The translations under genes and the position numbers were made by a program. Shown in pieces: positions 46,637 to 59,493 of a stretch of 64,000 nt of DNA; within the stretch, counting starts at the first letter, position 1, and every line of letters begins with the position of its first letter. The stretch lies in the NCBI GenBank assembly GCA_002155105.1, contig MUZD01000002.1, positions 186,001-250,000 on the forward strand. The letters run 5' to 3'. The notes beneath the pieces were generated by a model. It was not told the DNA's origin. It searched no databases and saw nothing but the letters and a program-made list of their open reading frames with translations. Source of the DNA: Sedimentibacter sp. SX930. Its GTDB lineage: Bacteria > Bacillota > Bacilli > Lactobacillales > Aerococcaceae.

Positions 46637-47491
46637 TCAGCCGATGCGGAGCGGCTTGGAATGGTCATCATGTCCGATGAAGGCCGTTTCCCACACCGGG
46701 AACCCGTACCGCGAAGCGTAGTTGCGGCACACAGCCAGAAAAGCGGCCTTTTTTCCATCCAACTCGATTTGCGTGAATTGCCCGATGAGCATACCATTGA
46801 TTTTTTCGAACGCGCCCAATTGTTCCAGTTGCGCCAACCCGCTGCACATCGCTTCGTACCTGCCGCCTGCCGATTCGAGGACCAACACTTTGTTTTCCAA
46901 TTCCGGCCAATAAGGGGTCCCTGCCAGCTTCAGGAAACAACGCAGATTCCCGCCTGCAAAAACTACCGAAGATTGCTCAGAGGCACTGTTTCCGCCTATT
47001 CCGAACGTGCTGGTCCAGTCTGCATCGTTACCGCTGGATAAATCACGGAGGGCTTGTGTTTGGAATGCTTCCTCCTGGCTCACGAGCACTTTTGGGTTAT
47101 AGAGGATATTCTGGATGCCGGTCTTGACTTGGATCGCATTCACGATCACAGAATTATCGCTGTAGCCGAAGTAGGGTTTCGGATTCTTTTTGATGATCCC
47201 GAAATCGAGATAAGGCAATATTTCATTGGCTAAATCCCCGCCGGATAAGTCAAATATCGCTTTTACGCTCGCATCGGAATAAAGGGACAATAAAGCCCCT
47301 GCACGGGATGCAGGGGCCTCGGTTTGCTGTGTCTCTTTATCCAGGAAAAGTACGTCACTCATTACGGTCTCAAGGCCAAAATCATGCTTGAGTTTCCGGC
47401 TGAGCGACGAAACCATTTCCAGCGAGCGGTCATTATTCGTCAATCCGTTCGAGCAGCTGATGAAGCCGATCGCATCTCCCGGATGCCACAT
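46637..47491 (-). CDS. Peptidase S66 (LD-carboxypeptidase/MccF-type)
   Basis: 284-residue serine peptidase of family S66. The nucleophile Ser lies in GYSDNS (about residue 104), the Glu in LVLESAGG, and the His near the end in IGHDDHSKPLRIG. LD-carboxypeptidases trim tetrapeptides of recycled peptidoglycan, whereas MccF relatives cleave toxic peptide-nucleotides; the choice is open. ATG 47491 begins MWHPGDAIGFISCS. It starts 19 bases after the ABC ATPase gene and so appears to be the fourth gene of the importer operon. Confidence 0.82.
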   Translation of the reverse strand: MWHPGDAIGFISCSNGLTNNDRSLEMVSSLSRKLKHDFGLETVMSDVLFLDKETQQTEAPASRAGALLSLYSDASVKAIFDLSGGDLANEILPYLDFGIIKKNPKPYFGYSDNSVIVNAIQVKTGIQNILYNPKVLVSQEEAFQTQALRDLSSGNDADWTSTFGIGGNSASEQSSVVFAGGNLRCFLKLAGTPYWPELENKVLVLESAGGRYEAMCSGLAQLEQLGAFEKINGMLIGQFTQIELDGKKAAFLAVCRNYASRYGFPVWETAFIGHDDHSKPLRIG

Positions 47492-47510
47492 AAAGATCAC
47501 TACCTTTCTG

Positions 47511-48305
47511 TCAGACCAAGATGTCTTGGATGGATAATTCCTGAAGTTCAGCAAATACTTTTTCGGGCGTCAATGTTTTCTTCGTTTCAGCGTCGTAATC
47601 GTTCATGATTTGACCGTGATGCAGCACCAGCATGCGGTTTCCGTACTGGATCGCGTCCTGAAGGTTGTGGGTGATCATGATGCTGGTAAGGTTGTTGTCG
47701 ACCACTTGTTGATTCGTCAATTCCAAAACCAATTTGGCCGTTTTCGGATCCAACGCTGCCGTATGTTCGTCAAGCAGAAGGATATCCGGTCTTTTCATCG
47801 TTGCCATCAGCAGCGCGATGGCTTGTCTTTGGCCGCCCGACAAGAGCCCGATATCAGAGCCCATACGGTTTTCCAGGCCTAAGCCCAATTTTTTCAGTTC
47901 CTCTTTGAAGAATGCTTTTTCTTCGTGTGAAGTCCCGAAGCGCAGCGTCCGTTTTTGGCCTCTGCGGTATGCCAAGGATAAGTTTTCCTGCACCGTCATC
48001 CGTGGAGCGGTCCCCATTTTTGGATCCTGGAAGACCCGACTGATGTATGGCGCGCGCTTATCTTCTTTCAGGAATGTAACATTTTGTCCGTTTACGATGA
48101 TATCGCCTGTATCAGGCAGGAAGTTCCCGGAAATGGCATTCAACAGGGTTGATTTGCCTGCTCCGTTGCCTCCGACCAAGGTGATGAAATCGCCTTGTCT
48201 GACCGTCAGATTGACGTCCTGCAGGGCGTTGACCTGATTGGGTGAACCAGGGTAGAACGTTTTGGAGACATGTGACATCGTCAACATCGCTTCATGATTA
48301 GTCAT
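47511..48305 (-). CDS. ABC importer ATP-binding protein (TrpZ-like)
   Basis: 264-residue ABC ATPase. Walker A GGNGAGKST (about residue 43), signature LLSGGQRQAIALLMA (about 150), Walker B ILLLDEHTAALD (about 170) and the H-loop ITHNLQ are all intact. It overlaps the permease gene by 8 bases and pairs with a PF04392-type binding protein, the composition of the TrpXYZ/YtrF-like amino-acid importers. Confidence 0.9.
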   Translation of the reverse strand: MTNHEAMLTMSHVSKTFYPGSPNQVNALQDVNLTVRQGDFITLVGGNGAGKSTLLNAISGNFLPDTGDIIVNGQNVTFLKEDKRAPYISRVFQDPKMGTAPRMTVQENLSLAYRRGQKRTLRFGTSHEEKAFFKEELKKLGLGLENRMGSDIGLLSGGQRQAIALLMATMKRPDILLLDEHTAALDPKTAKLVLELTNQQVVDNNLTSIMITHNLQDAIQYGNRMLVLHHGQIMNDYDAETKKTLTPEKVFAELQELSIQDILV

Positions 48306-49194
48306 TTCGCTTCACCTTCTTTCGCAATGAGTACATGTAGTAGGTTTCCTTGATTTTCGGCAACGCCAAGAAGAAGGTCAACAATACGGCTGAAATCAAC
48401 TTGAAGTCATTCGGATTCATGCCGGCTTCCAATACCATCACCATGATCAAGCGGTACAGGACCGAACCGAGCATCAGGCAAACCAAACGCATTTTGAAAG
48501 AGACATTCGTGAACAATACTTCGCCGATGATGATCGAAGCCAGACCGATGACGATTGTTCCGATACCCATGCTGATGTCGGCGTAGCCATTGTCCTGGGC
48601 GATGATGGACCCGGCCAATGCGACGATGCCGTTCGAAATCATCAGGCCGACGATTTTCATCGTGTTTGTGGAAATACCCAATGAGCGGGCCATCGCTTCG
48701 TTGTCACCTGTTGCGATGACAGCTTGGCCGAATTCCGTTTTGAAAAAGATGACATAGAGTCCGATGATCAGGATGACAACCAACAAGCCTAACGCAATCG
48801 TGTCAAAATGTCTGGGAAGATTCATATTTTGGAAAACTGTGAAAATTGTATTTTTTCCCAACAGACTGATGTTTGCTCTCCCCATCACGCGCAGGTTGAT
48901 GGAATAGAGGCCGGTCATCGTCAAAATACCTGCCAAAAGGCTGGGAATCTGCAGTTTTGTGATCAAAAACCCAGTGATCAGTCCGGCTGAACTACCGGCA
49001 ATGATGGCAAATATAATCGCAATATAAGGATTGGCCCCTAAAGTGATGGCTTGAACAGCCACAGCCGCACCGAGAGGAAACGCACCCTCGGTAGTCATGT
49101 CGGCTAAATCTAAAATGCGGAAACTTACAAATAAACCAAGTGCCAGAATACTCCAAAGCAACCCTTGGGAGACGGCGGAAATAATCATGTTCAT
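48298..49194 (-). CDS. ABC importer permease (TrpY-like)
   Basis: 298-residue permease with about nine hydrophobic segments, of the branched-chain/sugar (BPD_transp_2) type. The stretch TTEGAFPLGAAVAVQAI near residue 35 and GINLR-like YSINLRVMGRANISLLG are typical for partners of PF04392 binding proteins. EAMARSLGISTNTMKIVGLMISNGIVAL marks the loop that would contact the ATPase. It starts five bases after the binding-protein stop. Confidence 0.9.
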   Translation of the reverse strand: MNMIISAVSQGLLWSILALGLFVSFRILDLADMTTEGAFPLGAAVAVQAITLGANPYIAIIFAIIAGSSAGLITGFLITKLQIPSLLAGILTMTGLYSINLRVMGRANISLLGKNTIFTVFQNMNLPRHFDTIALGLLVVILIIGLYVIFFKTEFGQAVIATGDNEAMARSLGISTNTMKIVGLMISNGIVALAGSIIAQDNGYADISMGIGTIVIGLASIIIGEVLFTNVSFKMRLVCLMLGSVLYRLIMVMVLEAGMNPNDFKLISAVLLTFFLALPKIKETYYMYSLRKKVKRND

Positions 49195-49199
49195 TAAAT

Positions 49200-50243
49200 C
49201 TACTCTCCTTCTCCTACAAAGATGGCATTTTGTGCGACATCATCGGGAATCGTGATGCCCAATTGGTCGGCTTTCGCTTGATTGACTACCAGTTGAATGC
49301 CTGTCGCGTACTGTACGGGATAAGTTGCGGGATCGGCCCCTGCCAGGATATCAGCCGCCACAGCTCCGGTTTGGGTACCCAACGCATATTGATTCAAACC
49401 AATCGTCGCCAACCCGCCTTCTTCAACCATCGTATCCACAGCAGGGAATACCGGGATGTTGTAAGAATCCGCAACCGGGATCAATGTCGCTAAGCCGCTT
49501 GCGATAGTGTTGTCTGTCGGCACGTAGATTGCATCCACTTCAGAAGCAAGGCTTTCAGCTACTTGGGCGATGTCGTTCGTCGAAGTGACTGTTTTTGTGA
49601 TTGTCTTCAAGCCTAATGAAGCAGCAATTTCTTCAGCCTCTTTAGCGGAGCTGATTGAATTGTCCTCTGCGGATGAGTAAAGGATACCGATTGTTTTGGC
49701 ATCAGGAAGCAATTGTTGAATCAAAACAAACTGGTCGCGGGTCGGAGTCTTGTCGCTGACGCCGGTGATGTTGCCTCCCGGTTTTTCCATTGAATCCACA
49801 AGACTGGCCGCCACAGGATCCGTGATGGCTCCCAAAATGATTGGAATATCGGTGGATGCGTTCGCCAACGCTTGTGCTGCAGGGGTAGCGATGCCGATCA
49901 TGATATCCGCATCATTCGAAACGAACCGCTCCGCTATCGATTGCATATTTGACTGATCGCCCTGTGCATTCTGGAAATCGATTGTTGCAGTTTCTCCGTC
50001 CACATAGCCGGCCTCTTCCAATTGGTCGATGATGCCTTCTCCGATCTGATCGAGTGCCGGGTGGGTCGTCAATTGCATGATGCCGATATAAGGCAAATCC
50101 GGATTGATGCTGTCGGTGGAGCTTGCAGCGGAACCGTCCGAAGAGGTGTCCGAATTATTGGCATCCGAATTGCCGCATGCCATCAATACTGTCGCTGCCA
50201 TTAGGGTCAAAATGCTTGCGCGTGCTCTGAATAATTTTTTCAT
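49200..50243 (-). CDS. ABC importer substrate-binding lipoprotein (TrpX-like)
   Basis: 347-residue lipoprotein. The signal peptide ends in a lipobox LMAC with C23. The body matches the ABC_sub_bind (PF04392) family: YIGIMQLTTHPALDQIGEGIIDQLEEAGY, then IATPAAQALANA, GAITDPVAASLVDS and GLNQYALG. In streptococci this family takes up tryptophan or tyrosine. The long leader upstream encodes a peptide with Tyr, Phe-Phe and Trp, which supports an aromatic substrate. The start has TCCTCC complement (GGAGGA) seven bases upstream. Confidence 0.88.
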   Translation of the reverse strand: MKKLFRARASILTLMAATVLMACGNSDANNSDTSSDGSAASSTDSINPDLPYIGIMQLTTHPALDQIGEGIIDQLEEAGYVDGETATIDFQNAQGDQSNMQSIAERFVSNDADIMIGIATPAAQALANASTDIPIILGAITDPVAASLVDSMEKPGGNITGVSDKTPTRDQFVLIQQLLPDAKTIGILYSSAEDNSISSAKEAEEIAASLGLKTITKTVTSTNDIAQVAESLASEVDAIYVPTDNTIASGLATLIPVADSYNIPVFPAVDTMVEEGGLATIGLNQYALGTQTGAVAADILAGADPATYPVQYATGIQLVVNQAKADQLGITIPDDVAQNAIFVGEGE

Positions 50244-50290: not shown

Positions 50291-50415
50291 AAAAAAGCCG
50301 CCATCTGAACCAAGTATGGCGGCTGAATACAGAAAACGCCACACAGACCGATATTGTCTATGTGGCGGCTTAAATATCTTTAGTAATCCACATAGATACT
50401 GTTCAGATGTTTCAT
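50291..50415 (-). promoter_or_regulatory. Candidate attenuator with competing hairpins ahead of the ABC operon
   Basis: On the minus strand: GTAGATAC...GTATCTAT helix; then TCTATGTGG (50388-50396), which can pair with CCACATAGA (50357-50365); then that same arm in hairpin H1 with GTCTGTGTGGC (50338-50348); then terminator GCCGCCAT (50316-50323) / ATGGCGGC (50297-50304) with TTTTTT. The H1 3-prime arm can pair with the terminator 5-prime arm. No T-box sequence is present. Confidence 0.65.
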
Positions 50416-50459
50416 CTGAGGCTGTATCTACGGACAATCAATACGTCACAAAGAACAAC

Positions 50460-50522
50460 CTACTCCACGTGGCTTTGCCAATCGAAAAAATTCAATTTGG
50501 AAACGCGAGTATATGCAGACAT
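50460..50522 (-). CDS. Leader peptide of the aromatic-type ABC operon
   Basis: A 20-residue open frame starting MSAYTRVSK and containing FFDW near its end. AAGGAG lies nine bases upstream of ATG, and the promoter below sits just before it. It ends about 45 bases before the competing hairpins. This is the layout of a ribosome-stalling leader for an aromatic amino-acid operon. Translation is inferred from the ribosome site, not shown. Confidence 0.6.
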   Translation of the reverse strand: MSAYTRVSKLNFFDWQSHVE

Positions 50523-50553
50523 GCTTGATTGCTCCTTTTTGATTGATAATTTA

Positions 50554-50582
50554 ATAGTAACCAATGGGAAAAACAAAGTCAA
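50554..50582 (-). promoter_or_regulatory. Promoter of the ABC importer operon
   Basis: On the minus strand, TTGACT (50577-50582), 17-base spacer, TACTAT (50554-50559), giving a leader of about 300 bases. Confidence 0.7.
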
Positions 50583-53764: not shown

Positions 53765-54074
53765 AGGCTGTCTCGAAATGAGACAGCTTCTTCTCTGTGG
53801 TTTGTTGGTATGGTTGTCTAGTCCCCGGTCAAGGGTCCGTGCTCCTGATTGTGAGTGAGATTCACCGCCAAAATGGATTTGACGGGGAATCTCGTGTTTT
53901 CCGCGGACATTTTTCACCGCCAAGGTGGTTTTGGCGGGTTCTGTGACCGTGATTTGAACTGTTTTTCCCCGCCTAACCGCTTTTTGCGGGTTTTTTCTGA
54001 GCATAAATTCAATTCCAAAATAGAAGGGGCTGTATAAAACCAGAAAGTACTTTTCTGATTTTATACAGCCCCTT
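53765..54074. repeat. Palindromic intergenic element, copy A
   Basis: It begins with hairpin AGGCTGTCTC (53765-53774) / GAGACAGCTT (53780-53789), contains several CCGCCAA/TTGGCGG pairs, and ends in a nearly perfect 51-base palindrome with arms AAGGGGCTGTATAAAA (54024-54039) and TTTTATACAGCCCCTT (54059-54074). A related copy lies at the right end of the window. It terminates rqcH and separates it from convergent rpoN; no gene is seen inside. Confidence 0.8.
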
Positions 54075-54164: not shown

Positions 54165-55490
54165 TTATGTCCTTTTTCTTTTCGAACTGGAGGGTATTCC
54201 CAAGCCCATGCGGTATTTTGCCACCGTTCTGCGGGAGATGTCGATTCCTTGCGCGATGAAATGATCGGCAATCATCTGGTCGGAAACCGGTTTTACCTTT
54301 TCTTCGCGGCCGATTATTTCCTTTATTTCGGTTTCGATGACGATGGATGAGATGGCTACCTGATCCCCATCATCCTCTTTCATAAAACCGCTCCGGAAGA
54401 AAAAGCGCAATTCGAAGATGCCTTTCGGGGTCGCCATATATTTGTCGTTCACGACCCTGCTAACCGTCGAAATGCTTAAGTCCGTTATTTTGGCGATGTT
54501 TTTCATCGCCATAGGTTTCATCGATGAGGCTTTTTCCAAGAAATAATCCGCCTGCAGCTGCAGGATGGCTTCCGTTATTTTGATGACGTTCTGCGTCCGT
54601 TGGAGAACACACTGCTGGATCCAGGAAATTTCTTTCTTTTTTTCTTCCAGATAACGTTTCATATCTTTATCCGCCAACGCAAGCAATTCGCTGTAATAGT
54701 CTTCGTTGAACGCAACCGATGGCAGGCCGCTTTGATTGAACGAGACGTCTAGTGTGTTGTCCTCGGCTATGGCTACATAGATGTCCGGTTCGACGAAGAC
54801 CGTTTCCTCGAATGTGGTCTCCCACTGCAGTTTCGTCTTCAGCTTGCTCATGTAGGTTATGATTTCGATCAGTTCGTCATGGTCGATCTCCTCGACGTCC
54901 CTAATCGACTCTAAGCGATAGGTAGACAGCTCCTTGAAATAATTTTCCAGTATGTAGTAGGCCAGCGGGGGCGATTGTTCGTCCCTTTCGGTCTGCAGCA
55001 TCAGAAACTCCTGCAGGTCGCGGGCACCGACACCGGGAGGATCCAACTGTTGCAGGAGCGTCAAGGCATCCAACACTTCCGTTTCTTGGGCCGCAGTCGC
55101 CTCCGCAACCTCTTCCAGCTTGATATCCAAATAGCCGTCATCCGTCACGTAGCGGATGAGGAACAGGACCAGCTGCCTGAGCGGCGTGTTTTTCATATTC
55201 AGATAGATCTGTTCATGCAGAAAGTCATAGAGCGACTGATTTTTGCTTTCCATGCGTTCATACCAAGGCGTCTGATTATCCGCTGTGTATACATTAGAGA
55301 CGGCCACCGCGCCCGTGTCCGACGCACGCTTTTTGATGTCCATCAACGGATTCCCCAATGCCTTGTCCTCTATGTAGGCGGAAAGTTCCGACATAGGCAT
55401 CTGCAAAATGTGCAATGCCTGTCGCATCTGTTGCGTCATCCGGATCGATTGTTGCTGCGTTTGTTTCAGTTGAAATTCCTGCATTGCCAT
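54165..55490 (-). CDS. rpoN: RNA polymerase sigma-54 factor
   Basis: 441-residue sigma-54. N-terminal Gln-rich activator-binding region (QLKQTQQQSIRMTQQMRQALHILQM-type start), core-binding region in the middle, helix-turn-helix ITDLSISTVSRVVNDKY near residue 325, and the RpoN box ISRRTVAKYRMGLG at about residue 420. In Lactobacillales it usually drives sugar phosphotransferase operons with LevR-type activators; none is in this window. The start has GGAGG ten bases upstream. A partial cre-like sequence (AGTAAGCGCTCTAA) lies upstream near 55550. Confidence 0.94.
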   Translation of the reverse strand: MAMQEFQLKQTQQQSIRMTQQMRQALHILQMPMSELSAYIEDKALGNPLMDIKKRASDTGAVAVSNVYTADNQTPWYERMESKNQSLYDFLHEQIYLNMKNTPLRQLVLFLIRYVTDDGYLDIKLEEVAEATAAQETEVLDALTLLQQLDPPGVGARDLQEFLMLQTERDEQSPPLAYYILENYFKELSTYRLESIRDVEEIDHDELIEIITYMSKLKTKLQWETTFEETVFVEPDIYVAIAEDNTLDVSFNQSGLPSVAFNEDYYSELLALADKDMKRYLEEKKKEISWIQQCVLQRTQNVIKITEAILQLQADYFLEKASSMKPMAMKNIAKITDLSISTVSRVVNDKYMATPKGIFELRFFFRSGFMKEDDGDQVAISSIVIETEIKEIIGREEKVKPVSDQMIADHFIAQGIDISRRTVAKYRMGLGIPSSSKRKRT

Positions 55491-58809: not shown

Positions 58810-59464
<655 letters not shown>

Positions 59465-59493
59465 ATTTTAAAGGTTCCTTCAATATTACTGTA

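Follow-up and report, generated by a model that had tools for sequence, protein, structure and literature searches.

Which signal governs the operon headed by trpX was the question raised by the window analysed here, a stretch of 64,000 nucleotides (nt) of Sedimentibacter sp. SX930 (contig MUZD01000002.1 of assembly GCA_002155105.1, positions 186,001 to 250,000). The region located 5′ of trpX, which runs from a promoter to a second terminator (50582-50291, on the minus strand, as are all the leader and operon features given below), had previously been read from its sequence alone as a leader-peptide attenuator for an aromatic-type importer, and as an independent local solution among relatives whose TrpX operons would usually be controlled by a T-box. 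Comparison with other leaders strongly supported the attenuator, and the same kind of leader was found before trpX in most of the relatives examined within the order Lactobacillales, which argues against a local invention. Overall, this leader is very probably a ribosome-mediated attenuator of the trpL kind that senses tryptophan and controls a tryptophan importer, although each single step of the chain proposed below is less sure than this overall reading.

A translatable leader related to the trpB motif family

To begin with, a 411-nt stretch containing the leader was subjected to a sensitive scan, in which it matched the Rfam family RF04312 (trpB motif) with 42.5 bits (E 9.5e-5). As this score lies below the cut-off of 59, the window RNA is classed on sequence as a divergent relative of RF04312 and not as a curated member, while homologous trpX leaders of other families in the order scored above the cut-off. 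In structure, the window agrees with RF04312, as it carries a P1 3′ strand able to antiterminate and then an intrinsic terminator, upstream of an ABC transporter. A search of 395 genomes of the order yielded matches to this family in 210. In the accessible part of its description (Narunsky et al. 2024, PMC11109978), the trpB motif (SRC-39-1) is a 'strong riboswitch candidate' with >900 representatives and no assigned ligand, Fusobacteria are named for it, and a classic attenuator is left open by its authors. The published layout coincides with the one found here, namely a P1 hairpin, an antiterminator strand in its right shoulder and an intrinsic terminator, before amino-acid ABC transporters or trpB; in contrast, neither an upstream open reading frame (uORF) nor upstream partner helices are described in that part of the text.

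A total of 142 oriented RF04312 leaders, obtained from the search of 395 genomes and from earlier searches, were compared. The RF04312 matches L072, L076, L077 and L078 were set aside, as reading their sequences revealed unrelated genes and no fitting uORF, and L234 was left out because its match is probably false. A uORF was defined by an ATG, a Shine-Dalgarno (SD) match of at least 4/6 and a frame of 9-35 codons ending near the start of the motif, and such a uORF with its SD sequence was present just before the motif in all the leaders (142/142). Trp occurred in 138 of the 142 peptides, accounting for 219 of 2578 residues over 134 distinct peptides. Using a stricter SD threshold, Trp-containing uORFs were found in 60 of 70 representative leaders vs. 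0.8% of resampled upstream sequences, so the leader frame exceeds what chance would give. Moreover, TGG made up 8.1% of the codons in frame, whereas the two alternative frames had 0.8% and 0.3%. When the anchor TGGCAA was chosen blind to the frame, the best SD sequence and ATG were in frame with it in 24/24 leaders of <70% identity having both, and in 111/111 overall.

In the window, the promoter TTGACT-17-TACTAT (50554..50582; 9/12 in a consensus scan) is kept in congeners, and the leader ORF (50460..50522) comprises 20 codons encoding MSAYTRVSKLNFFDWQSHVE, ends in UAG and is preceded by its own SD sequence AAGGAG (50532..50537), a promoter and a frame that had both been recognized in the sequence-only reading. 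The putative sensor is a single UGG, the sixth codon before the stop (50478..50480), whose position is conserved, and the codon after it (50475-50477 in the window) is CAA (Gln) in most leaders and Arg, His, Asn, Lys or Trp in others. The N-terminal halves of the peptides vary freely. The commonest peptide ends in WQNWRR before the stop codon, and the endings WQSWRR, WQSR and WQSH before the stop, WQVD and the window's own WQSHVE before the stop were also found. The earlier reading had stressed the Tyr, Phe-Phe and Trp content of the peptide and had made its case depend on the peptide being conserved across relatives. What proved to be conserved is the position of the sensor Trp, so that the lack of conservation named there as a refutation did not arise, while FFDW is replaced outside the genus by NRFDW, NGISW, NFYW or an ending in NW. 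As Tyr and Phe-Phe are not maintained there, sensing of aromatic amino acids in general was rejected; since only Trp is kept outside the genus, the signal should be Trp.

The genes following the leaders are in line with their peptides, as 130 of 139 were TrpX-like and six of the other nine look TrpB-like, one of them being confirmed. One RF04312 leader (L126, G083:C1) has the uORF MSYQTLQLNHSWQSR followed by a stop, and its first downstream ORF resembles by eye a group II intron reverse transcriptase, perhaps an insertion. Furthermore, a near-exact search for the tail of the window peptide retrieved mainly its own genus and L039, most other matches being chance-like. A tail scan of 85k species genomes yielded 47 matches, about 39 of which lay in Enterococcus, Vagococcus, Ruoffia and one Lactobacillales bin, with the remainder close to the estimated chance expectation of seven or eight.

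Competing pairings and the proposed switch

The leader contains six segments that would act as a chain of rival partners (A, X5, P, B, C and D), each choice excluding another. Segment A (CCACGTGG, 50465..50472) covers the His-Val-Glu codons and would pair with B when free of ribosomes, and X5 (AGGTTG, 50456..50461) overlaps and follows the stop codon. Segment P (50419..50433) consists of the 5′ strand of the RF04312 P1 hairpin, CCGTAGATAC, and then X3 (CAGCCT), the partner of X5, so that P is the alternative partner of B and X5. Segment B (GTATCTATGTGG, 50388..50399) is the putative antiterminator strand, with P, A or C as its partners. The first terminator (50337..50367), which corresponds to that of RF04312, comprises C (CGCCACATAGAC, 50367-50356) and D (GTCTGTGTGGCG, 50348-50337) followed by TTTT. 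This earlier hairpin (50367-50337) had not been singled out in the sequence-only reading, which described the second terminator (50291..50323), formed by E (GCCGCCAT) and F (ATGGCGGC) followed by T6 and present at 50323-50291 as stated. Folding of the 307-nt leader was better than that of 100/100 shuffles (z = -4.6).

The pairings were examined by a swap test, in which the best ungapped complementarity of two segments of one leader was compared with that found after exchanging one segment between leaders. Considering all leaders, the own combination was favoured with z = 17.9 for X5:P, 9.4 for A:B, 14.2 for P:B (a partly circular value, complementarity to P having served to locate B) and 6.0 for B:C. 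In the 31 leaders of <70% identity, the respective values were 8.3, 6.9, 9.7 and 4.2. The pairs A:B and B:C were not selected on this basis of complementarity to P, and the control pairs A:C, X5:B, X5:C and P:C showed no advantage of the own combination in either set. Consequently, the mutually exclusive hairpins suggested earlier found support in the coevolution of P:B, B:C and A:B, together with the terminator C:D and its T-run.

In the scheme that we propose, the single UGG of the 20-codon leader peptide would sense charged tRNA-Trp. When Trp is short, the ribosome would halt at this codon, masking A and leaving X5 free, and the formation of X5:P would release B to pair with C, blocking the C:D terminator and allowing transcription of the operon. 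When Trp is sufficient, a ribosome at the UAG would mask X5, so that P would take up B and the C:D terminator would form, ending transcription. Without translation, A:B and X5:P would nest, leaving B occupied, and C:D would again form and end transcription. In the Escherichia coli trp leader (trpL), mutually exclusive helices are set by the position of the ribosome on a short leader ORF with Trp codons, and this logic would also apply to the leaders described here, which likewise have Trp codons in their short ORF. However, compared by logic and not by sequence, these usually carry a single sensor Trp, or two in a spaced W-Q-x-W, where tandem Trp codons would be expected, and their chain is longer, as X5, masked by the terminating ribosome, would control P, which in turn would control B.

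This scheme was confronted with a folding model in which transcripts were cut before D and a ribosome footprint of 28 nt was assumed. On average, about 4 B:C pairs were expected with the ribosome at Trp, 1.5 with the ribosome at the stop and 2.5 without a ribosome, and for 124 of 139 leaders the predicted B:C pairing was higher with the ribosome at the first Trp than with it at the stop. The leaders L063, L069, L245 and L230 followed the scheme closely, and B:C pairing was absent in L070 and L068. As the model is thermodynamic and considers no pseudoknots, we infer the stall, the sequence of steps and the effect on transcription, while the uORF, the position of its sensor codon, the codon exchanges described below and the pairings emerge from the comparison of sequences itself.

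Several observations weigh against this attenuation scheme. In the folding model, B:C pairing in the window's own leader did not differ between the ribosome states. It also has only one Trp codon, and tandem Trp codons are usual in leaders of the trpL type. Moreover, the conserved Gln after the sensor Trp finds no explanation in the pairing scheme, and the P:B swap test is subject to the circularity mentioned above.

In the window, D can pair with E, the 5′ arm of the second terminator, by 8 bp (-13.2 kcal/mol in one duplex calculation). The second terminator may thus be coupled to the first through D:E, in which case escape from termination at the first hairpin could also lift the block at the second. 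The congener L011 has this second terminator too, and altered forms appeared in L013, L039 and L224.

Exchanged sensor codons and rival explanations

Natural exchanges of the sensor codons were found among the leaders. An RF04312 leader with an HHHH peptide (MIANNFVQVYFQFHHHHRFKGL, followed by a stop) precedes hisZ and hisG in L068, and the P1/terminator layout of the HHHH leader (L068, L152; G333:C19) matches RF04312 at 54.5 bits. In bacilli, a leader peptide with histidine had been reported earlier in front of hisZ and of a hisS paralogue (Naville and Gautheret 2010, PMC2965389), so L068, which resembles it, is a case of a known kind, the amino acid concerned being His and not the window's Trp. 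In addition, two other RF04312 leaders, L069 and L245, carry YYFSYFR and FYFSYFRYSL, each ending at a stop, before TrpX-family proteins, of which the 300-residue pieces scanned scored below the TrpX cut-off. In five congeners, a third TrpX paralogue is preceded by an FDFSYFR or FDFSFFR leader of the same layout, and paralogues 1 and 2 are preceded by Trp leaders. In the window genome, this third paralogue (L151, G000:C1:434400-437400) has a terminator and a short frame with HH, MQPQTKVPQSHHQ followed by a stop. A His sensor was rejected for it, given the intact FDFSYFR leader of the congeners at this place, and on sequence the frame resembles what a deletion would leave of an FDFSYFR leader, the middle of which was apparently lost. 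Overall, the sensor codons match the downstream pathway, with Trp before trpX or trpB, His before hisZ-hisG and Phe/Tyr before TrpX paralogues, for which these are putative substrates.

The FSYFR-tail pattern, allowing up to two mismatches, was found in 122 of 385 genomes of the order, compared to about 10 matches of a reversed control pattern. Among 30 FSYFR-type loci (L265-L294), a TrpX-like protein lay downstream in 24, and most had an SD-led uORF. All ten Phe/Tyr leaders scanned matched RF02863 (Enterococcus sRNA 2410), three of them above its cut-off. This family shares the X5, P and B layout with the Trp leaders, but is catalogued as a small RNA (sRNA) gene and has Phe/Tyr instead of Trp sensor codons. 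For 23 representative Phe/Tyr leaders, the swap test largely reproduced the pattern of the Trp leaders, with z = 4.4 for X5:P, 4.4 for A:B, 5.1 for P:B and 2.5 for B:C; X5:P is partly circular here for P:B, as P had been located from X5, and the control P:C was weakly positive too (z 2.0). We lean slightly towards considering RF04312 and RF02863 as two branches of one Lactobacillales attenuator superfamily, in which aromatic-importer paralogues would have exchanged sensor codons (Trp, Phe/Tyr), X5:P would detect the terminating ribosome and D:E would relay the outcome to the tandem terminator in the window's genus.

These exchanges bear on the other explanations of the leader. Direct binding of tryptophan or a related compound by P1, as supposed by the authors of the trpB motif, would agree with the good conservation of P1 and with the strong-candidate class assigned in PMC11109978. 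However, most of the conservation of the P1 nucleotides can be traced to the alternative partners that they have within the uORF and behind it, a uORF with a fitting sensor codon occurs throughout the sample, and a classic attenuator was left open by the authors themselves, which makes a metabolite riboswitch very unlikely. An arrest peptide resembling TnaC, in which free tryptophan would bind the ribosome carrying the nascent leader peptide and cause a stall near the stop codon, appears equally improbable. It could account for the conserved C-terminal tail W-Q-x-W-R-R-stop and its Gln, but the RNA architecture stays the same where this tail is replaced, by FSYFR in the paralogues and by HHHH in one his operon, several Trp leaders end in WQSR, WQSH or WQVD, and there would be little point in inducing an importer when Trp is abundant.

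As any stall over A would give the antiterminator in the proposed scheme, the leader peptide might also report the general translation rate and not Trp. The change of sensor codons with the downstream gene argues against this, and we give it still less credence than the riboswitch or the arrest peptide. The least probable explanation is a chance ORF before an unregulated terminator, in effect refuted by comparison, given the conservation of frame, codon, position and pairing across the order. Tryptophan-sensing attenuation by a translated leader is the reading retained as the most probable.

The importer operon, the T-box and implications

The gene following the leader, trpX (49200..50243), encodes a tryptophan ABC transporter substrate-binding protein (NF041285, 422 bits with a cut-off of 390, E 1.2e-126), followed by an ABC permease (48298..49194, PF02653) and an ABC ATPase (47511..48305, PF00005). 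The importer proposed in the sequence-only reading is thus present, with Trp as its probable signal in place of aromatic amino acids in general. Furthermore, an LD-carboxypeptidase-like gene (Peptidase_S66, 46637-47554) probably belongs to the operon, as it overlaps the end of the preceding ATPase gene.

No T-box (RF00230) was matched in the window or in L001, in agreement with the sequence-only reading of the leader, but the expectation that TrpX operons of relatives would usually be under T-box control did not hold: among 19 trpX relatives scanned, a T-box above the cut-off was found in L025 only. In Streptococcus suis, trpXYZ was shown by experiment to be under T-box control (PMC9382623). 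That system concerns the same kind of importer and responds to Trp-tRNA charging too, although it reads the tRNA directly without translation and is absent at the window leader. A T-box leader does precede the trp biosynthesis genes of the window's own genome (116.3 bits, L263:5164-5406, G000), so that Trp synthesis and uptake appear to be controlled differently within one genome, by a T-box and by leader peptides, respectively.

Elsewhere in the window, a PyrR binding-site RNA (RF00515) was found at 59377-59478 on the minus strand with 56.9 bits, exceeding its cut-off. A strong inverted repeat of 20 pairs with a T-rich tail lies at 54026-54072 (minus strand), downstream of an ORF at 54165-55490 that looks like rpoN by eye.

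What may be new is the assignment of a uORF to RF04312 and of a Phe/Tyr version to RF02863, the mechanism itself being of a known kind. No prior report of either was found in the literature searched, nor was the 'trpB motif' named in any paper found besides PMC11109978, subscription papers lying outside that search. If the reading holds, an orphan riboswitch candidate with >900 representatives would leave the hunt for a ligand and become a translated leader reading the charging of Trp-tRNA, and RF02863, an 'sRNA' family in Rfam, would turn out to be the Phe/Tyr equivalent of that leader. Moreover, the sensor codon would serve as a cheap predictor of the cargo of uncharacterised TrpX-like importers, and leader-peptide attenuation, long thought to be rare in Firmicutes, would be a main mode of control of aromatic amino-acid uptake in the order.
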